64,000 nucleotides of DNA from assembly GCF_000373185.1 (NCBI RefSeq), contig NZ_KB890639.1, forward strand, positions 1 through 64,000, in the 5' to 3' direction. Both the position numbers and the translations under genes were made by a program. The notes under the pieces are model-generated. The model ran no database searches. It was not told where the DNA came from and saw only the letters and a program-made list of their open reading frames with translations. How positions within the stretch are numbered: the stretch's first letter is position 1; every line of letters starts with the position of its first letter. Below are positions 1 through 14,226 of this stretch, piece after piece. The DNA comes from Segatella paludivivens DSM 17968 = JCM 13650. GTDB lineage: Bacteria > Bacteroidota > Bacteroidia > Bacteroidales > Bacteroidaceae.

Positions 1-1699
1 TATTCCATTGAGCTATATATGAATCAGAAGGCTTTAGCAAAGGATTACCACATTGGTACATAAACTCATTTGAATAATAACTAGAGTTGCTTAATTGCCT
101 GAATGTTGGTCTACTTGTACGGGAAGTGAACGACAATGTATTAGCCCAACCATTCTTATTATATATTAATGATATAGAGGGGTATATATTTTTATAATGT
201 CGATGAACATCTCCTGTCCTATCTATTAAATTCTTATAATCAGAAACTAATTCTTCATAGCGTAATCCTCCATTGACCAGTACATCACCCATATTAAGTT
301 TAGCTTCTGCATAGGCAGCATATTTATTTTCTTTATCGCTATAATTTGAAGACGGCGTATTCCCAGAGTCGCTACTCAAAGAACCTGATATATTTATGTG
401 ATTACATTCTATTCCCCATGATAATCCCAACTTCTCGTTTAATTTGTAATCGAATGCAAACTTACCAGAATAAATGTCCAACATATTATTTCCGATACTG
501 ATGGTTAATTTAGGAACACTCGCTGTTGTTTCATTTGTTTCCTGATTGTATTTATTATTATTATTGGCATAATCCAGATTAAATTCTGACGACAACAGCT
601 TGCTCCACTGTGCATTATAGAATAGGTTTACGTGATTATATTTCGTCTTATTAGTATAATCATTAAGAATATCTGTTAACTGAACAACTTTATCATTTAG
701 CTGATAATCAAGCATAGAAATACGATGTTCATTATCTTTGTTATTTGATGAATTCCACTCAACGCCTATGTTATGTCTATCATTTATTTCATAATCCATG
801 TTTATTTGCCATTCACCGTTAGTCAAATGTCCCTTAGCTGTTTGATCTTGAGTATAACGATGTGTGTTTTCTCCAAGGAATAATTCTTTTGTTTGTGGAA
901 GTATAGATCTGTTTTTTGTATTATCGTAACTGAAGTTAGCTGATAAACTAAGTTTCTGATGCTTAAATCCTATCTTCATGTCATTACCATAGCTTGACCG
1001 TCTGTTTTGTTTGGCACTGCTCCCAACTTGCAATGTCAGTCCGTCTTCTTTTTTCAAAAGAACAATCTTAAGTACAGCCTTTCCTTCTGCGTCATATTTG
1101 GCATCAGGGTTACTAATAAGTTCGATGCTTTTTATATCTTTCGGAGATAGTTGTCTCAATTCAGTCTGATCTTGTACTTTTTTGTTATTTATGTATATTA
1201 TAGGAGCACCTAAGCCGAAGACTTCAAATCCACCATTAGCTGTTCTTACTATTCCTGGAATCTGAGAAACTAAATCTGAGAATTCATGTACTTGACTCAA
1301 TACAGATCCAGCTACATCCGTTATCATAGATCCATTCTTTTGTCGAAAGATGGGTTTACTTCCTATCACAGAAACCTCACTCAAAGTGGTAGAGTTTGTT
1401 TTAAGCTTAAGTATTCCTACATTAGTCTTCGTTTCTGATACAGGATAATATAAATCTTCATATCCAATGTGTGTCAGTTTTAATATTTTTGCAGTAAGGT
1501 TAGTATTAGATAGAACAAAATTTCCATCTTCGCTTGTTACACAACCAACTACAAATGAAGAGTCTTTGGCATTCAGCAAAATTATATTTGCATATTCGAT
1601 GGAAATCCCGCCTTCATCAACCAGACGTCCTGTAATAGTTTGAGCATGTCCAGCATATATGTTGCAGCATACGGCTAATATCATTAATAACTTCTTCAT
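1..1699 (-). CDS. TonB-dependent receptor-like outer membrane beta-barrel protein (partial, C-terminus off the left edge)
   Basis: About 566 residues are visible, from MKKLLMILAV onward; the barrel end lies outside the window. Residues 1-20 form a signal peptide ending AGHAQ. Residues ~21-95 look like a carboxypeptidase-regulatory-like fold (TITGRLVDEGG..., IGYEDLYYP). Residues ~100-200 form a plug-like domain (LVSQIPGIV, IIYINNKKVQD, IELISNPDAKYDAEG), and from ~205 there are alternating amphipathic strands typical of the outer membrane beta-barrel family (Pfam OMP_b-brl_3 type). It lies 33 bp downstream of the radical SAM maturase on the same strand, so it is probably the last visible gene of that operon and could move or recognise the peptide product. 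That role is inferred from position only. It is not a full SusC, since no SusD partner is seen. Confidence 0.85.
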   Translation of the reverse strand, partial: MKKLLMILAVCCNIYAGHAQTITGRLVDEGGISIEYANIILLNAKDSSFVVGCVTSEDGNFVLSNTNLTAKILKLTHIGYEDLYYPVSETKTNVGILKLKTNSTTLSEVSVIGSKPIFRQKNGSMITDVAGSVLSQVHEFSDLVSQIPGIVRTANGGFEVFGLGAPIIYINNKKVQDQTELRQLSPKDIKSIELISNPDAKYDAEGKAVLKIVLLKKEDGLTLQVGSSAKQNRRSSYGNDMKIGFKHQKLSLSANFSYDNTKNRSILPQTKELFLGENTHRYTQDQTAKGHLTNGEWQINMDYEINDRHNIGVEWNSSNNKDNEHRISMLDYQLNDKVVQLTDILNDYTNKTKYNHVNLFYNAQWSKLLSSEFNLDYANNNNKYNQETNETTASVPKLTISIGNNMLDIYSGKFAFDYKLNEKLGLSWGIECNHINISGSLSSDSGNTPSSNYSDKENKYAAYAEAKLNMGDVLVNGGLRYEELVSDYKNLIDRTGDVHRHYKNIYPSISLIYNKNGWANTLSFTSRTSRPTFRQLSNSSYYSNEFMYQCGNPLLKPSDSYIAQWN

Positions 1700-1732
1700 T
1701 ATACTCTACTGTTGCATATTAATTTTATAAAA

Positions 1733-3046
1733 TTATTGTATTCCATCCTTCATGCTTTTAATGTAATATAGCTCAATCAAAGAAAGAAAATCGTCTTCAT
1801 CTATTGGGCATGGATCATAAGATATTTTATTGTGATTTTGAGTATATCTTCTTTCAATACATCCGCCATCGCAAATTGGCATAAATACACAATCCTTACA
1901 TCTTTTATCCGAAAACATATCTGAACCTACTGTATATGTTGGGAGTATATAATTAGCTAGTTTCCCGTCAAAGACATTACTTACGACTTTTTCTTTTTTC
2001 CCTACATCAACCCAACACTTATATATTTCTCCAGATGGTCCTATAACATAAGAGTTTATACACGATGCTGCGCATCCTCCTATTTGAGGCTGTGTGGAAA
2101 CATCGATGTCGTTTATCCCATATTGTTCATACAAAGAACGTACAAAAGATATTTTTCCTTTATCTGCTAAACATGCTACTTTGCATGAATTATTTACATC
2201 ATTAACAAAAGCCACATTAATTGAATAATTTTGGTCTCCCCATCTTTCTTTCATTTCCTTATATAACAAGGGAAAGGTATCTTTATTTTCTGAATGTAGA
2301 TTTACTCGAACAATAACATGACAATCAGGCATATATCGAAAGACATTTTCTATGTTATTCATAATTATATCATAGGTAGGAATTCCTGATTTGTGAATTC
2401 TGCTTTTATTATGATAAGCTTTATTACCATCAACTGTGATTTGAATTTTATTTAAGTTATAATCACTTAATATTTTACATTTTCTTTCATCTAGCAAGAA
2501 AGCATTGGTAACCATTGAATGAGAACGTAACGACAAACTTTTATCATTCCGAATCTTATTTAAAAATGATAACATTTTGTCGAAAGCAATTAAAGGCTCA
2601 CCACCATGCCAACACAAATCTATATTATTCTGATTTTTCTTCTTAATAAAAGAATAGATACCTTCAATAACTTCTTCCGTAATTGTTATTGGTGGTAAAT
2701 TATTCTCATAACAATATGGACATTTAAAATTACAAGAAAAGGTAGGTAATAGGATAATACTAAGACTATTGCAAGCAAAAGCTTGTTTATATCTTAAAAA
2801 CTTTTTCAGTTCATAAAAATCCACATCTTCATTTTGTTGAACAAAGACTTTCCCCTTAATCAATTTTTCAATTATATCTTGGTTTATACCTAATGTATTA
2901 ACTTCAAAGTAATTTAATTTGGACAGTTCTTCTAATTTTGCAAAAAGCTGCCTACTCAATGATATGAAAAATCTGGTTCTTGTATTAAATAAAAGTGCAC
3001 CATATTTTTCGGAATATTTCAAATAATTATATCGTGAAAATTTCAT
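1733..3046 (-). CDS. radical SAM/SPASM peptide maturase, GG-Bacteroidales type
   Basis: 437 residues. The radical SAM [4Fe-4S] motif CxxxCxxC is C105-NFK-C109-PY-C112, followed by the GGEP motif at 148-151. A C-terminal SPASM domain with auxiliary-cluster cysteines is clear: C325, C329, C344, C383, C386, C392, C396 and C413, in the pattern CKDCVFMPICDGGC. The N-terminal ~90 residues look like the usual leader-recognition region of such maturases. SPASM enzymes install thioether, C-C or other crosslinks in ribosomal peptides. The target is very likely the 49-residue double-glycine peptide encoded 60 bp upstream on the same strand. The family assignment rests on the motifs plus the adjacent precursor; the type of modification cannot be told from sequence. 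Confidence 0.93.
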   Translation of the reverse strand: MKFSRYNYLKYSEKYGALLFNTRTRFFISLSRQLFAKLEELSKLNYFEVNTLGINQDIIEKLIKGKVFVQQNEDVDFYELKKFLRYKQAFACNSLSIILLPTFSCNFKCPYCYENNLPPITITEEVIEGIYSFIKKKNQNNIDLCWHGGEPLIAFDKMLSFLNKIRNDKSLSLRSHSMVTNAFLLDERKCKILSDYNLNKIQITVDGNKAYHNKSRIHKSGIPTYDIIMNNIENVFRYMPDCHVIVRVNLHSENKDTFPLLYKEMKERWGDQNYSINVAFVNDVNNSCKVACLADKGKISFVRSLYEQYGINDIDVSTQPQIGGCAASCINSYVIGPSGEIYKCWVDVGKKEKVVSNVFDGKLANYILPTYTVGSDMFSDKRCKDCVFMPICDGGCIERRYTQNHNKISYDPCPIDEDDFLSLIELYYIKSMKDGIQ

Positions 3047-3106
3047 ACTTTATAAAAAATAGGGTACGACAAACTTATAATGTCGCACCCACATGATTAG
3101 ATTTTG

Positions 3107-3256
3107 TTAAAATACAGATACTGAAAGCTGGTTAGGTGGTAGGTGAACAACACCATCTCCCTTGCACTCTATAACAGGCTGCTCATTTCCTCCATAAATT
3201 GATTCCAATTCAGAGGTTAACACATCTTCAAAAGATGTCAATGTTTTAAATTCCAT
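3107..3256 (-). CDS. 49-residue double-glycine RiPP precursor peptide (GG-Bacteroidales type)
   Basis: Reading the minus strand from ATG at 3256 gives 49 codons and a TAA. The leader MEFKTLTSFEDVLTSELESI ends in the motif ELESIYGG (GG at residues 22-23), the hallmark of Bacteroidales natural product precursors that are cut after Gly-Gly by C39 peptidase exporters. The predicted 26-residue core begins NEQPVIECKGDG and ends LSVSVF; it has one Cys, two consecutive prolines and mixed hydrophobic residues. It is encoded between a secreted DUF3244-like protein (102 bp upstream) and the radical SAM/SPASM maturase (60 bp downstream), all on one strand. A C39 transporter is not in the window and could lie beyond the left edge. 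The gene is small enough to be skipped by automatic callers. Confidence 0.85.
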   Translation of the reverse strand: MEFKTLTSFEDVLTSELESIYGGNEQPVIECKGDGVVHLPPNQLSVSVF

Positions 3257-3358
3257 TTTATTCTTTTTTCATTATACCTACTCACTAAGCTTTTGGGCAC
3301 ACTCTCCTGTTTACCAGTAAGGTCTGGATATAATATTGTCGACTTTATTATGTCATAG

Positions 3359-3733
3359 TTATATTTCCTCAGAAGAACTGAAAATTATATTACCACTATA
3401 GTATACTTCGATGGTATATTCTCCTTTCCCATATCCTTGAAGATCTAGAGTATAGGTTTCACCTTCTGCAAAAGAGCCAGAATTCTGATCTATAAGAATA
3501 CCATTTTGATAAACTTTTATTTCTGCATTATCAAATGCTCTCATAAAAGTCAATGAACATACCCCATTGTCCATGCTATCAATAATATAGGACATATGAG
3601 TTGATTTACGGACAGGAGGAGTTATACCTCCCATGGTTGGTGTTTCACTATTATCAAAATTAATAGCGAATGTGCTTAAATATATTGAACTAAGCAACAT
3701 TATCAAAGCAAAAAATAAGATATTCTTTTTCAT
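3359..3733 (-). CDS. secreted small beta-sandwich protein, DUF3244-like
   Basis: 124 residues with a clear signal peptide (MKKNILFFALIMLLSSIYLSTFA, cleavage near residue 23-25). The mature part has a TPPVRKS segment and then a repeated strand pattern ending with FDNAEIKVYQNG, YTLDLQGYGKGEYTIEVYYSG and IIFSSSEEI, which resembles the small DUF3244 beta-sandwich proteins common in Bacteroides and Prevotella. Those have no assigned enzymatic activity. It is the first gene of the minus-strand set that continues with the double-glycine peptide and its maturase, and it is divergent from the TPR regulator. A TAACTTTG -7 box lies 46 bp upstream of the start. A role in envelope protection or immunity is possible but only guessed from position. 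Confidence 0.75.
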   Translation of the reverse strand: MKKNILFFALIMLLSSIYLSTFAINFDNSETPTMGGITPPVRKSTHMSYIIDSMDNGVCSLTFMRAFDNAEIKVYQNGILIDQNSGSFAEGETYTLDLQGYGKGEYTIEVYYSGNIIFSSSEEI

Positions 3734-3779
3734 GTTTTAATCTCTATTTATTTAATCCATTTTTTGTCTTTCGGCAGAA

Positions 3780-3787
3780 CAAAGTTA
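3780..3787 (-). promoter_or_regulatory. -7 box TAACTTTG for the RiPP operon
   Basis: On the minus strand the sequence is a perfect TAnnTTTG, the Bacteroidota sigma-ABfr -7 consensus, 46 bp before the DUF3244-like start. The -33 element is weak. Confidence 0.55.
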
Positions 3788-3838
3788 TAAACGTTTTTAT
3801 TACCATCCAATTTATCTTGCAAGAAATTAAAAGTAGGT

Positions 3839-3922
3839 GTTGCAGGTTGCGTTGCAAGTTAAAATACACTATATCAGCTTTTTATGCTTATTTAAGCTAT
3901 TTTGTTGCAAGTCAAATGCAAC
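3839..3922. repeat. GTTGCAAGT direct repeats, candidate operator
   Basis: GTTGCAGGT at 3839-3847, GTTGCAAGT at 3851-3859 and GTTGCAAGT at 3904-3912; the first two start 12 bp apart and the third 53 bp later. TGCAAC at 3917-3922 is an inverted half copy. They lie upstream of both divergent transcription units, so an activator or repressor site is plausible. Confidence 0.45.
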
Positions 3923-4074
3923 AGAAATAGACAATCCTTAGACTGGAAAAATTACATTTTAAACAAAAAAGAATATTATTATTCAGCTATGAATAGAATA
4001 TTTTAATTGAACTTTTTTATAGTTAATAGTCTCAATTATATTACAAATAGTTAATAAAAGTCACCAAAAAGTTG

Positions 4075-4082
4075 TATTTTTG
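4075..4082 (+). promoter_or_regulatory. -7 box TATTTTTG for the TPR regulator
   Basis: Perfect TAnnTTTG match, 35 bp before the ATG at 4118. No clear TTTG -33 element. Confidence 0.5.
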
Positions 4083-4117
4083 CATCACTATTACTGATTA
4101 TAATAAAAAAACACTAC

Positions 4118-5707
4118 ATGATGAAAATCAATATAAAAGCATTATCTGCGATATTTATAATCATGGTATTTACATCATGCCATGAAAATATAAACCACAA
4201 ATTACAAATGGCAGACGAGTGCCTAGACAGAAATAATGTTGACTCTGCATATAACATCATAAAGCATATTAATCCTGATAATCTAAATGGAGATGAAAAT
4301 ATAGCCCTTTATACATTGTTAAATACTAAAGCAAAATACATCAAATATATTCCTGTAAAAAACGACTCGATTGATTATGCTATATTTTATTATAAACAGA
4401 ATGGACCTGAAAAAAGGCTAGCAGAAGCATATAATTATAAGGCTATGACAATGTATTATGATCAAGGAAAAAAGGAAAAAGCAATTGAATATCTTAAAAA
4501 AGCAGAAGCGATTGCTTTAAAAACTACTGATACAAAACTAATACAAAAGATTTATGATAATATATGTATTGTTAATTTATGGAGTAACCATTATAATATA
4601 GCTCTTGAATATGGATATAAAGCTCTTAATATTGCATATAATATAAAAGATACAGCTAGCGTAGCTTATGATTTAAGATATATATCTGATACATACTCTG
4701 AACTAAAAATGGATAAAAAGGCTATGGAATATTATTTAAAAGCTATTCGATATTCAAAATACTACAACAAGCAAAGTCTAAGTATTCTATTAGGGAATAT
4801 TGGTGAGTATTATTTTGAGAAGGGAAATATTATGAAAGCCAATGAATTTTTAGAGAAAGCATTCCAAAAGAGTCCTAATGTATATACATATTCTGTTGTC
4901 GCAGACATGTATATAGAAAAAGGTAAATACATAAAAGCAACAGAGCTTATGGAAAAAGCACCTTTACCAACTAATGATTTTGATAATTTGAAAAAACTAT
5001 CTACTCTATACAACTTGAATAGAAAATCCAAGAACTATGTGAAGGCTTTAAATTTTGCAGACTCAATCATTCAACTTAACAAGAAAATAAATTACTCAAA
5101 AGAGCATGACAACCTCAACGATATCCAGGCTAAATACGATCGTGAGATTATGGCACAAAAATTTAAAAGCCAAATCATATATATGATTGGAGCATTGTTG
5201 CTATTATCACTGTTAATCATATTGCTAATATTCAGACAGAAATATAGAAACTCTAAAATAAAACATGGCATAATCGAAAACAGGCTTCTAATAAACGAAT
5301 ACAAAAAGAGAATATCTGAAATGGAAAATGCAAAAGATAATTCCATTTCTAAGATTTCAAACTTGGAACAAAAGATTAATGTCTTAGAGGATAAAGAGTC
5401 GAAAACTTTATATAATGGCAAAAAATGCTACGAGAGTATCCTTGATAATAATACTATCGTAAATTGGTCTGCAAAGGATTTGAATGATTTCGTAGACTAT
5501 TATAGGTACAAAGACCTTCCATTCGTTTCATCGCTTGATGATGAATACAAAAATCTAAGTCCTAAACAATATCTATACTTGATCATGGTGAACGCTATGA
5601 ATAAAGACGACGCTACTGCGGAAAAAATAATGGGAGTGAGCAATGTTACCATTAGGTCTATTAAATCACGTATAAAGGCTAAGAAAGTCTATCATCCAAG
5701 TGTTTGA
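4118..5707 (+). CDS. TPR lipoprotein-like membrane regulator with cytoplasmic HTH-like C-terminus
   Basis: 529 residues. The N-terminus has a hydrophobic segment ending FTSCHEN, a lipobox-like Cys near residue 21. Residues ~25-330 are tetratricopeptide repeats (AEAYNYKAMTMYYDQGKKEKAIEYL and similar helix pairs). A single transmembrane helix lies near 352-373 (IIYMIGALLLLSLLIILLIF), then a coiled coil to ~440. The C-terminal ~90 residues end LSPKQYLYLIMVNAMNKDDATAEKIMGVSNVTIRSIKSRIKAKK, which reads like a helix-turn-helix. This architecture, periplasmic TPR sensor plus one TM plus cytoplasmic HTH, is a known Bacteroidota class of one-protein regulators. It is divergent from the RiPP operon and is its most likely controller, by position. 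Either of two adjacent Met codons could be the start. Confidence 0.8.
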   Translation: MMKINIKALSAIFIIMVFTSCHENINHKLQMADECLDRNNVDSAYNIIKHINPDNLNGDENIALYTLLNTKAKYIKYIPVKNDSIDYAIFYYKQNGPEKRLAEAYNYKAMTMYYDQGKKEKAIEYLKKAEAIALKTTDTKLIQKIYDNICIVNLWSNHYNIALEYGYKALNIAYNIKDTASVAYDLRYISDTYSELKMDKKAMEYYLKAIRYSKYYNKQSLSILLGNIGEYYFEKGNIMKANEFLEKAFQKSPNVYTYSVVADMYIEKGKYIKATELMEKAPLPTNDFDNLKKLSTLYNLNRKSKNYVKALNFADSIIQLNKKINYSKEHDNLNDIQAKYDREIMAQKFKSQIIYMIGALLLLSLLIILLIFRQKYRNSKIKHGIIENRLLINEYKKRISEMENAKDNSISKISNLEQKINVLEDKESKTLYNGKKCYESILDNNTIVNWSAKDLNDFVDYYRYKDLPFVSSLDDEYKNLSPKQYLYLIMVNAMNKDDATAEKIMGVSNVTIRSIKSRIKAKKVYHPSV

Positions 5708-7984: not shown

Positions 7985-7992
7985 TTTATTTG

Positions 7993-8000
7993 TAACTTTG
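7993..8000 (+). promoter_or_regulatory. -7 box TAACTTTG upstream of the C1 peptidase gene
   Basis: Perfect TAnnTTTG ending 6 bp before the ATG at 8007, implying an almost leaderless transcript if used. It overlaps the 5' end of the U32 gene. No TTTG at -33. Confidence 0.4.
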
Positions 8001-8006
8001 CGCAAT

Positions 8007-9020
8007 ATGAAAAAAATACTTTTATATATAAGTGTCTCTCTTGCATTGATTTCATGCGGTCGTCCTTCTAAACAAACTGTTGAAAAGAACCCGTTTATCA
8101 CCGATGTAATGCTGAAGACAACTCCAATCAAAAATCAGGGTCATAGTCAACTGTGTTGGGCTTACGCAATGTTGGCCACCATAGAAACAAATCACCTTAT
8201 GATGGGTGACTCTGTGAACCTAAGCGCAGACTATATTGCAAGAATGATGCTTACAGACGCATCAACAAAATATTATCTTTCAGGGGGCAAAAATACAATT
8301 TCAATGCGAGGAATGGGCAGTCTGCTTATTCATCTTATGCAAAACTATGGTATTGTTCCTTTTGATTCATACAACGCCAAAGAACCTGCAAATTATAACG
8401 TCATTTGTCGTAAGATCATGCAGGCTACAAAAAGTGCAAACAATCTTAGCACACTCAATCAAAAAGTGAATGATGTACTAGATGAAGAAGTTGGATATAT
8501 GCCATCAAAATATGTACACATGCTTGGTGCAGAATATACTCCACAAGAATTTGGGCACAGCGTATGCCGTGATGACGAATATGTGAACGTGACAAGTTTT
8601 AAGCATCATGTAATGGGTGAATCATTTATATTAGAAACTCCAGACAACATTATGAACGATAAATTCTTAAATGTTCCTATAGAAACCTTGATGAGTATGA
8701 TTACAAAAAGTATTGTGAAAGGTAAGGCTGTATGCTGGGAAGGTGATATCACCGATTCTGGTTTTTCTTTTAATGACGGAATTGCCGAAACCAATCATCG
8801 TACTGTAACTCAGGATTTGAGGCAACAAGAGTTTGAGAGTAGGCAGACTACTGACGACCACGCAATGGAGCTTGTCGGTCTGGCTCATGACAAAAACGGA
8901 AAGAAATACTTTATTGCAAAAAACAGCTGGGGCACTGGCAACCGCTTTAGGGGTTACATGTACCTCAGCTATAATTATGTAAAACTAAAGACAATAGCTG
9001 TATTCCTTTCTCGGGATTAA
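8007..9020 (+). CDS. C1 family (papain-like) cysteine peptidase, lipoprotein
   Basis: 337 residues from MKKILLYISV. The N-terminus is a lipoprotein signal, with the lipobox LISC putting the lipid Cys at 17. The catalytic triad is visible: NQGHSQLCWAYA gives Cys50, DDHAMELVG gives His285, and AKNSWG gives Asn306. The pattern matches bleomycin-hydrolase/PepC-type aminopeptidases of Bacteroidales, here shorter and envelope-anchored. An upstream in-frame Met at 7965 is rejected because the protein would lose its signal peptide at the N-terminus. The gene is divergent from the U32 gene and convergent with the phosphatase. Substrate is unknown. Confidence 0.88.
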   Translation: MKKILLYISVSLALISCGRPSKQTVEKNPFITDVMLKTTPIKNQGHSQLCWAYAMLATIETNHLMMGDSVNLSADYIARMMLTDASTKYYLSGGKNTISMRGMGSLLIHLMQNYGIVPFDSYNAKEPANYNVICRKIMQATKSANNLSTLNQKVNDVLDEEVGYMPSKYVHMLGAEYTPQEFGHSVCRDDEYVNVTSFKHHVMGESFILETPDNIMNDKFLNVPIETLMSMITKSIVKGKAVCWEGDITDSGFSFNDGIAETNHRTVTQDLRQQEFESRQTTDDHAMELVGLAHDKNGKKYFIAKNSWGTGNRFRGYMYLSYNYVKLKTIAVFLSRD

Positions 9021-9037
9021 AGCCTGTCAACTAGTTA

Positions 9038-10321
9038 TTATTCCGTAAACTTATTTATCTTATCGAGATAATACTGTCTCACATCTTTCCAATGATAATA
9101 TGGAGCTATATCTGTCTTAACAGGCAATGTGGCTTCATTTTCATTTCTAAGTACTTTTACGAGTATATCCTTAGAGCCTTTCTTGTGATAAAACACAAAC
9201 TGAATATTGCAAGCCATCGGGAAGATACGATAGTTATTCCATCCCTTGTAAGCAAGCTGCTCTAAATCACTCACCTGCATTCCCATTCCATCAAGATCCA
9301 TAAGGCATGTAAGCGGCATAACCATCGTGTCATGACCATAACGCAAAGTCACTCCTGGATGTGGTAAAGCTATACAACTATCGGCATCACTAATTATCTT
9401 GCGAAGAAGGTTACGCTGACTGTAAGGTTGGTTACCTCCATTCAAAGGACATGCGCCATAGTTGATATACCACCAAGCATTATTTATCTGCCAAAGATCA
9501 TATATCTCGTCATCGGTAAATAGGTCATATAATGACATGCTATTGCGCAACTCTGTACTTTGCACGTTACTAGCCTGCTTGAATAACATTTCATACAATT
9601 TATTGGCATTTAAATGATTTTTCCAATATTCATCATCATTAAACAACAGTCGCATTACACGCTCAGGATGCTCATGATTTTTACAAAATTCAGTATAAGG
9701 TATCATTGCGCTTGTTGGCATACGTTTTTTAAACAATAATGAATCATCATAATTCATATAATACATATCATGGTAACTTGCATCATGAGTAATATTCAGC
9801 TGTGGATTCATTTTTGTCATTTGCTGCAACGCATTTTCCATACTTAGTATGCAACGTATCACATTAGTGCTCTTTGCATCGACATTAGTTTTTCCAGCAA
9901 ATATCTGCGGAAAGTTCTTCAACATGCGTTCTGCAATCTGCTTATGCTGCAAAGCTCCCCTTTGAGTAAGTTCTCCGTCACGTCCAAGAGCAGCGGCGCG
10001 CATAATACGGAGTTTGGCAAGCACGTCCTTACCCTTAAGTGTGAGTTTACCAAGTGAATCAGCCTTTTCAAGCAGCACAACTGGTTTATTGTAATCACTG
10101 TCACCAATAAGCCAACGGCTGCCATGACGTCCATAGTGACTAAGGTAAAACGGTTCATATCCAGAAGGTGCAGGAGTAAGTTTTTTCTGCAAAGGCCCTG
10201 GATAAGCCAAATAATTACTTGCCGACAAACTACGGTCGGCTTTAAAATCCTTTCGTGCCTGTTGTGCAAACCCTATAATGGCAATTGACAACAGAATAAC
10301 GATAAAAGCATTTCTTTTCAT
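9038..10321 (-). CDS. secreted histidine acid phosphatase, MINPP/phytase-like
   Basis: 427 residues with a signal peptide (IVILLSIAIIGFAQQA). The histidine phosphatase signature RHGSRW is at 65-70 (nucleophile His66) and the proton-donor region RYGHDTMVMP has His330-Asp331. The length and the two motifs agree with the multiple inositol polyphosphate phosphatase (MINPP) group known in Bacteroides. MINPP enzymes usually carry HAE at the donor site; the HD pair here is like many phytases and glucose-1-phosphatases. The substrate is probably a phosphorylated inositol or sugar, but only assay could tell. Upstream on its strand there is a TATATTTG -7 box at 10345-10352. Confidence 0.85.
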   Translation of the reverse strand: MKRNAFIVILLSIAIIGFAQQARKDFKADRSLSASNYLAYPGPLQKKLTPAPSGYEPFYLSHYGRHGSRWLIGDSDYNKPVVLLEKADSLGKLTLKGKDVLAKLRIMRAAALGRDGELTQRGALQHKQIAERMLKNFPQIFAGKTNVDAKSTNVIRCILSMENALQQMTKMNPQLNITHDASYHDMYYMNYDDSLLFKKRMPTSAMIPYTEFCKNHEHPERVMRLLFNDDEYWKNHLNANKLYEMLFKQASNVQSTELRNSMSLYDLFTDDEIYDLWQINNAWWYINYGACPLNGGNQPYSQRNLLRKIISDADSCIALPHPGVTLRYGHDTMVMPLTCLMDLDGMGMQVSDLEQLAYKGWNNYRIFPMACNIQFVFYHKKGSKDILVKVLRNENEATLPVKTDIAPYYHWKDVRQYYLDKINKFTE

Positions 10322-14099: not shown

Positions 14100-14125
14100 C
14101 CGTCGAAAATCATTTAGATTTTTAA

Positions 14126-14203
14126 AAGAGGGGTGCTGACAAAAATGTCGGCTGAGATTATACCCGTGGAACCTGATGCAGTTAGTACTGCCGTAGGGAG
14201 AGA
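14126..14203 (+). ncRNA. TPP riboswitch (THI element)
   Basis: The conserved aptamer parts are present in order: GAGGGGTGC, the GCTGAGA pyrimidine-sensor loop with the following ATTATACCCG, GGAACCTGAT, GCAGTTAGTACTG and CCGTAGGGAG. These form the P1-P5 arrangement that binds thiamin pyrophosphate. A 7-bp hairpin (GACTTTT/AAAAGTC at 14202-14218) and a T-run follow and probably serve as the expression platform, ending transcription when TPP is bound. It precedes thiD-thiE-thiC-thi4. Confidence 0.95.
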
Positions 14204-14226
14204 CTTTTTTTAAAAGTCGCTTTTTG
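14202..14226 (+). terminator. short hairpin of the riboswitch expression platform
   Basis: GACTTTT at 14202-14208 pairs with AAAAGTC at 14212-14218, followed by GCTTTTT. It is a modest hairpin, so attenuation may also work at translation. Confidence 0.45.

Follow-up and report, generated by a model that had tools for sequence, protein, structure and literature searches.

Results and Discussion

The present work concerns the window, which is the whole stretch of 64,000 nucleotides of Segatella paludivivens DSM 17968 = JCM 13650, and in particular the gene locus at its positions 1-5707. On the minus strand, in the order of transcription, the locus comprises genes for a DUF3244 protein, a short precursor peptide, a radical S-adenosylmethionine (rSAM) enzyme with a SPASM domain, and an outer-membrane barrel. 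A previous sequence-only reading had placed these four genes on one strand, correctly, and had taken them for a locus of a ribosomally synthesised and post-translationally modified peptide (RiPP); in outline this is borne out, and the pair of precursor and maturase recurs in relatives. The divergent regulator gene at 4118-5707 (plus strand) was left out by that reading, although it lies within the coordinates it covered. The window runs from base 1 of its contig (C14) onward, in a 3.46-Mb assembly of 61 contigs rated 99.96% complete, and since it starts at the contig end there is no DNA to its left in the data for this genome. We will argue that on balance the product of the locus is more likely than not a ribosomal peptide closed by one intramolecular thioether, which would be exported through the TonB-type barrel.

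The precursor peptide and its relatives

The precursor gene (3107-3256, minus strand) has 49 codons, as described in the sequence-only reading, and is supported by a homologue profile, by selection and by its neighbourhood. The leader, residues 1-23 (3188-3256), ends in ELESIYGG, and the core, residues 24-49 (3110-3187), is NEQPVIECKGDGVVHLPPNQLSVSVF. A profile of six peptides from other loci (one of which was entered, there and in the alignment, without its first Met) recovers this frame with E 4.3e-24 in a set of 1255 frames from the window, while the runner-up has E 5.4, and the gene is the single match in the genome. The conjecture that a double-glycine (GG) precursor had been overlooked here is thereby upheld, together with the evidence from purifying selection: among 21 precursor pairs, 11 have a finite dS, and each of these has a ratio of nonsynonymous to synonymous divergence (dN/dS) of less than 1, with values of 0.11-0.42 in ten and 0.75 in one; in the remaining ten pairs dS is saturated. 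Invariant positions number 15, 23 and 3 of 45 at codon positions 1, 2 and 3, respectively. Judged from these substitution patterns, the precursor is a real coding gene under purifying selection, with a conserved frame in which synonymous change prevails among the homologues.

In the seven precursors, the leader GG, L13 and E16 are invariant and the ELxxIxGG-type motif is kept, with a typical leader consensus of EDVLxxELExI[YF]GG. Each has a single Cys, one of nine invariant columns in the alignment, within the segment C[KN]x[DN]G[IV]Vx[ILV]P. The residue at +3 from this Cys is Asp in six and Asn in one, and Gly stands at +4 in all seven. The C-terminus is [IV]F in six; the terminal Phe is absent in Tannerella. 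The expected 26-residue core with one Cys is thus found, and the Cys is conserved throughout, whereas the ProPro pair that had also been pointed out is not conserved among the homologues. Neither could we place the peptide in the GG-Bacteroidales precursor family, which we take to be TIGR04149 (a model whose presence in the NCBIfam release scanned is unconfirmed): at E<=5 the seven precursors match only BlpC (0.054) and TIGR03893 (0.13), with one member each, and no model meaningfully. The family is new, but of a known RiPP kind, and the literature matches listed, to the extent of their available text, include no report of this precursor, or of a mini-adaptor (see below) with a peptidase-containing ABC transporter (PCAT).

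When genome contigs are scanned with the enzyme, nine loci are recovered. In all six that have upstream DNA and a full-length enzyme gene, the same rSAM/SPASM gene is preceded by an orthologous precursor, in the form of one or two small open reading frames with the same leader and core. These six are L002-L004, which all have one and the same pair of peptides and include Palleniella muris, L005 (Prevotella sp. UBA6994), L006, on a contig labelled Lachnospiraceae that is perhaps misbinned, and L008 (Tannerella forsythia). They represent four lineages, or five when the window is counted. L007 and L010 start within the enzyme gene. In L009 (Hallella multisaccharivorax, 8049-8987, on a 3.3-Mb scaffold), the maturase homologue follows a barrel fragment and starts past the CxxxCxxC motif; a precursor was looked for at this locus and none was found, and the locus is probably decayed. 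Relatives of the enzyme (E<=1e-20) are present in 51 of 399 genomes of the family, the window's included, with all others at <=38% identity. Within the genus, for which 398 genomes were covered, two further genomes have the enzyme at >=70% identity; they are probably identical with those of Palleniella muris and UBA6994. Across the sampled genomes, the occurrence of the locus is rare and patchy.

Between precursor and maturase, the segment 3062-3090 (minus strand) folds into a 10-bp stem-loop followed by a U-rich run, with an energy of -17.4 kcal/mol (z -4.86), and none of 200 shuffled sequences is equally stable. All four close relatives have a stem-loop at the same position, with different stem sequences (z -2.9 to -6.1, including the window). 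For the window and the wider relatives, z is <= -2 in 31 of the 36 precursor-maturase gaps folded, a set in which near-duplicates are included and 50 nt of the next gene were added; one further gap was too short. Because only some of the gaps have a U-run, a terminator and a stability element are indistinguishable, and the element at 3062-3090 may be either a leaky terminator or an RNA-stabilising hairpin.

The maturase and the predicted ring

The maturase gene (1733-3046, minus strand) is assigned by Pfam and NCBIfam, a sequence profile and the predicted fold as an rSAM/SPASM peptide maturase with an N-terminal domain resembling a RiPP recognition element (RRE). As the sequence-only reading stated, it starts 60 nt after the stop of the peptide and has the motif CNFKCPYC as well as the SPASM cysteines (CINSYVIGPSGEIYKC...CKDCVFMPICDGGC...C); the GGCxxxC stretch at the SPASM start is present with its second Cys. 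The nearest solved structure by sequence is CteB (5wgg; a second entry is 5why), with E 1.1e-16 to 5wgg over residues 99-256. The AlphaFold model, with a mean predicted local distance difference test (pLDDT) score of 73.6 and a weak SPASM part, matches CteB with Z 21.2 (368 residues) and TigE with Z 18.4 (367), in both cases over the whole length and with the N-terminal domain included. Among the NCBIfam models, only that of the general SPASM domain (TIGR04085) is matched above its curated cut-off, with 48.8 bits against 27. The scores are below the cut-off for the two top-ranking families, Clo7bot (181 of 600 bits) and CefB 'Cys-every-fifth' (180 of 600), as well as for PapB (NF047865, 109.5 of 340) and SCIFF (70 of 425). 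The modelled fold and the nearest families favour thioether formation, and like CteB, PapB, Clo7bot and CefB, the window system has the rSAM/SPASM fold, an RRE-like N-terminus, a leader, and a Cys as the likely donor. According to the available text of PMC9413430, PapB closes CXnD rings for n=0-6, and to completion for n=1-5. The CX2[DN] motif of the window differs from the CX3D/E of PapB given there, but since PapB tolerates various CXnD spacings, a CX2D ring would be chemically reasonable.

It is also possible to look for the +3 register among wider relatives, using 55 cores from 36 of 64 loci. For relatives with an enzyme score of >140 bits and with the close family included, the residue at +3 from Cys is Asp, Asn or Gly in 67 of 157 cases, compared to 43 expected, and Ser or Thr in 9, compared to 22.5; with the close family excluded, the former count is 60 of 150, compared to 42. 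Eight candidate peptides were dropped beforehand, namely two L002 duplicates and six that were judged by eye to be non-substrates (L083, L084, L097, L103, L117 and L129); the peptides of L083 and L084 may nonetheless be genuine. A strict CX2N rule for all relatives was considered and rejected: Asn is found in 28 of 150 cases (14.4 expected), but Gly is also enriched (26 of 150, 16 expected). Other offsets score too, such as Asn at +8 (22 of 118, 11.7 expected). With Gly also enriched, Asp not, and other offsets scoring, the +3 register is suggestive only, and relatedness among the loci is a further caveat on the enrichment. As a separate observation, two loci, L082 (G058) and L098 (G090), have precursors with repeated Cys-X2-Asn units, six in the case of L098, beside related maturases.

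The barrel, the exporter and the mini-adaptor

The barrel gene (1-1699, minus strand) is cut by the contig end. It has a CarboxypepD_reg-like domain, a weak plug match and an OMP_b-brl_3 match, which confirms the outer-membrane receptor seen earlier, and it runs off the left end of the window. In related loci, maturase and barrel are followed by the gene for a C39 exporter (a PCAT), which is complete in L003, L005 and L008 and truncated where the contig ends in L002 and L006. The C39 exporter that had been anticipated beyond the barrel is thus present in these relatives, whereas the genome of the window has fragments only.

In L008 and L009, the exporter is followed by a mini-adaptor of 155-158 residues, and in rSAM-linked loci generally its length is 153-178 residues. 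The mini-adaptor consists of an HlyD-like membrane anchor and a terminal beta-barrel, and is without the lipoyl domain and the alpha-helical hairpin that docks to TolC. Pfam gives nothing over the cut-off for five such proteins, with two chance matches at E 0.08. A profile of 13 mini-adaptors (A1), on the other hand, matches HlyD (8dck_C, 355-466) through its columns 55-162, with E 2.3e-8. Of four mini forms scanned, two align with the HlyD model TIGR01843, at positions 302-412 and 313-405 of its 422 and far below the whole-protein cut-off; the other two, from L008 and L009, give no match at all. The predicted structure (VIA), which is of low confidence (mean pLDDT 64.6), gives a middling Z of up to 9.4, to one chain of a MacAB-TolC entry, and its best 20 structural matches are all adaptors or efflux complexes containing one. 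Full-length adaptors from the same bacterial order match the mini profile in two stretches, roughly the first 60-120 and the last 100 positions, and their middle region is absent from the mini forms. The terminal beta-barrel domain is thus shared with HlyD, EmrA and MacA, and the absence of the alpha-hairpin with Borrelia BesA, as far as it is described in the available text of PMC3807786. Unlike all of these, the mini-adaptor has no lipoyl part and is encoded with a PCAT and often with a TonB-type barrel. Directly behind the PCAT in L003 (13852-14070) and in L005 (near 13.8-14.0 kb), we observe a mini-adaptor trimmed to 72 and about 50 residues, respectively, leaving the N-terminal tail and the membrane segment; it may be degraded or a functional minimal form.

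The barrel occurs in 28 of 31 mini-adaptor loci but in only 6 of 37 with a full-length adaptor, for PCAT loci with >=5.5 kb of upstream DNA. The Fisher value of 7e-10 for this set ignores relatedness, and many of the mini loci were found through the rSAM gene. For all loci, the counts are 30 of 39 and 8 of 44; they are 22 of 23 and 3 of 9 with a detected rSAM gene, and 8 of 16 and 5 of 35 without (p 0.013). Three mini loci (L200, L210 and L213) have enough upstream DNA and yet no barrel. These counts were made by an iterated model at E 1e-8, and a stricter model labels fewer barrels. Parsimony on a FastTree tree of the exporter (69 rows) gives six changes of the mini form, with one broad clade supplying most cases, and the three independent pairs on well-supported branches (1.8 the same way, 0.1 the other way and 1.1 without difference) are not significant. 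The link between mini-adaptor and barrel rests largely on one broad clade and two smaller lineages.

Parts of the operon are repeated elsewhere in this genome. The upstream region, which would contain the promoter, with the start of the DUF3244 gene (3640-3850, minus strand) has two further copies, on contigs C44 (84%) and C47 (78%). Besides this copy, C44 (L076) holds a barrel, two PCAT pieces of 46 residues each and a mini-adaptor of which just the start is present before the contig ends; C47 (L043) has a barrel. At the beginning of contig C33 stands a second copy of the window barrel, followed by another barrel and a metG-like gene (named by eye). A tandem barrel joining C14 and C33 can be envisaged, but the end overlap of 425 bp is just 92.7% identical, and in 10 relatives with wider flanks, two of them short, the metG-like gene is not beside the SpoU gene that flanks the window locus. 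From the duplicate barrels, the upstream copies and the PCAT pieces it follows that parts of the operon have been duplicated and partly lost. As for the exporter of this genome, it has either been lost or falls into a gap of the assembly. The cassette repeated on the short contigs C44 and C47 may itself be what breaks the assembly.

The DUF3244 protein and the regulator

The first gene of the operon (3359-3733, minus strand) encodes a small secreted protein that matches PF11589 with 32.2 bits against a cut-off of 25, in agreement with its earlier description as DUF3244-like; a sequence search finds no solved relative. The divergent gene at 4118-5707 (plus strand) has Pfam matches to tetratricopeptide repeats (TPR), and a homologue stands beside DUF3244 in relatives. 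By eye, its product has a lipobox-like N-terminus, one transmembrane segment and a C-terminal region resembling a helix-turn-helix (HTH); it resembles the BT3442 and FimS families weakly, far below the cut-off, and its function is putatively that of a regulator. Wherever DUF3244 is matched, this TPR regulator is present too, which holds for 13 of 13 distinct loci, not counting the duplicates L002, L077, L151 and L152. One of the 13, L212, has DUF3244 and the regulator without a detected rSAM gene, and eight more loci have the regulator without a DUF3244 match. As DUF3244 always comes with the regulator, it tracks the regulator and not the peptide modification. The barrel and the DUF3244 protein had been regarded as unusual neighbours, a view that we have to revise: the barrel is common at such loci, and DUF3244 goes with the TPR regulator.

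Proposed mechanism and alternatives

In the mechanism that we propose, transcription would start upstream of the DUF3244 gene, and the stem-loop observed after the precursor gene would keep the mRNA of the peptide above that of the maturase. The RRE-like domain of the enzyme may bind the conserved leader, whereupon the enzyme would join the sole Cys to a nearby residue, most likely Asp or Asn at +3 (CX2[DN]), to form a small ring preceding the GIVx[ILV]P segment. A C39 ABC exporter, encoded in relatives and absent from this assembly, would cut after the GG and carry the core over the inner membrane. The gene linkage suggests that the peptide then exits via the TonB-type barrel, aided by the hairpin-less mini-adaptor where one is encoded. 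The TPR regulator, with repeats in the periplasm and the HTH-like end in the cytoplasm, may sense an envelope signal, perhaps via the DUF3244 protein, and control the operon.

Several observations weigh against this mechanism. The top structural match of the maturase, with Z 23.2, is anSMEcpe, a sulfatase maturase, in an alignment that spans the catalytic core, and this core is common to SPASM enzymes. Two of the eight aligned enzymes (L007 and Tannerella L008) are without the second Cys of GGCxxxC. Outside the close family, the +3 signal comes from Asn and Gly, with Asp in 6 of 150 cases compared to 11.4 expected; part of it is due to a few repeat-rich precursors, and the shuffle p-values are therefore overstated. 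CteB, Clo7bot, CefB and SCIFF have Cys-rich substrates, unlike the window core with its one Cys. In the whole assembly, no C39 domain (PF03412) is found over the cut-off, the best score being 13.6 bits against 22, so that possibly no product leaves this strain.

One alternative is a RiPP with other chemistry, such as epimerisation, a C-C or C-O crosslink or a backbone change, in which the Cys would be free or in an intermolecular disulfide. SPASM enzymes catalyse many reactions that the catalytic-core fold does not distinguish, and such a reaction could act on the GIVx[ILV]P stretch, which is conserved. The invariance of the Cys, and the fact that among solved structures the closest relative over the whole length is a thioether synthase, argue against it, and for a cyclophane the core has no conserved aromatic residue save the terminal Phe that Tannerella is without; we consider other chemistry unlikely. 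Another question is the direction of transport. The barrel has the architecture of a TonB receptor, and most proteins of this type import. It could hence be a receptor for the peptide itself, in feedback, or for a nutrient captured by the peptide, as with microcin and siderophore receptors, the exit then being via TolC. However, the barrel sits between maturase and PCAT in L003, L005 and L008, and it accompanies the hairpin-less rather than the full-length adaptors, in the counts given above for loci that are not independent. Outward transport has a precedent in Oar, a TonB-dependent transporter of Myxococcus xanthus that is reported to be required for secretion (PMC6434023). Like the proposed barrel, Oar is TonB-dependent and implicated in outward transport; it differs in that its substrate is a protease, and the available text of that report mentions no PCAT partner. 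Import thus appears doubtful to us. A more serious possibility, although we would still not bet on it, is that the locus in this genome is a relic, with the exporter lost, the precursor and maturase not yet decayed, and the product unsecreted. The missing C39 domain, the short PCAT pieces and mini-adaptor start beside the upstream copy on C44, and the Hallella maturase without its CxxxCxxC part are all in line with this. On the other hand, precursor and maturase have intact frames, and that of the barrel stays open as far as the end of the contig. Moreover, it is within a duplicated barrel that the contig breaks off, which makes an assembly gap possible, and on C44, too, a contig end truncates the mini-adaptor piece. 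Taken together, we retain the thioether peptide exported through the barrel as the somewhat favoured interpretation.

Further features of the window and its relatives can be mentioned briefly. A thiamine pyrophosphate (TPP) riboswitch is located at 14119-14217 (plus strand, 58.9 bits). Related DNA on plasmids amounts to 60 records, every one with <60% identity. PADLOC gives matches to just two models, both of viperin and both on the radical SAM core. A search of viral contigs gives one match, at 26%, namely L011 (IMG/VR IMGVR_UViG_3300021431_002946, 467 kb), which encodes at 7992-9260 an rSAM/SPASM-like protein with 26-29% identity to the window enzyme and with PHROG 1802 over most of its length.

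Conclusion

The association of PCATs with GG precursors in rSAM/PCAT clusters of Bacteroidales has already been reported (PMC10352776). As far as the available text of that report goes, its clusters share with ours a GG precursor, an rSAM gene, a PCAT, an outer-membrane gene and a TPR gene. The window precursor was not found in that text, the precursor sequences standing in a figure. Four of its clusters, BGC6-9, hold a PCAT together with an outer-membrane gene, and a membrane fusion protein was not identified in them; because the mini-adaptor has no Pfam match over the cut-off, it could be the one that was missed.

Of the present findings, the export module comes as more of a surprise than the precursor family. 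Tentatively, Bacteroidota may have a TolC-free route that consists of a C39 exporter, a mini-adaptor that is sometimes just an anchor, and exit through a TonB-like barrel, with the one-ring CX2[DN] thioether peptide of the window as one cargo. This would be a possible answer to the export question left by PMC10352776, in that an adaptor may exist that is reduced beyond what standard models detect, and its partner barrel may be TonB-type. The locus also provides a short substrate-enzyme pair for the question of the CX2D/N ring, in bacteria that are common in the mouth and the gut.

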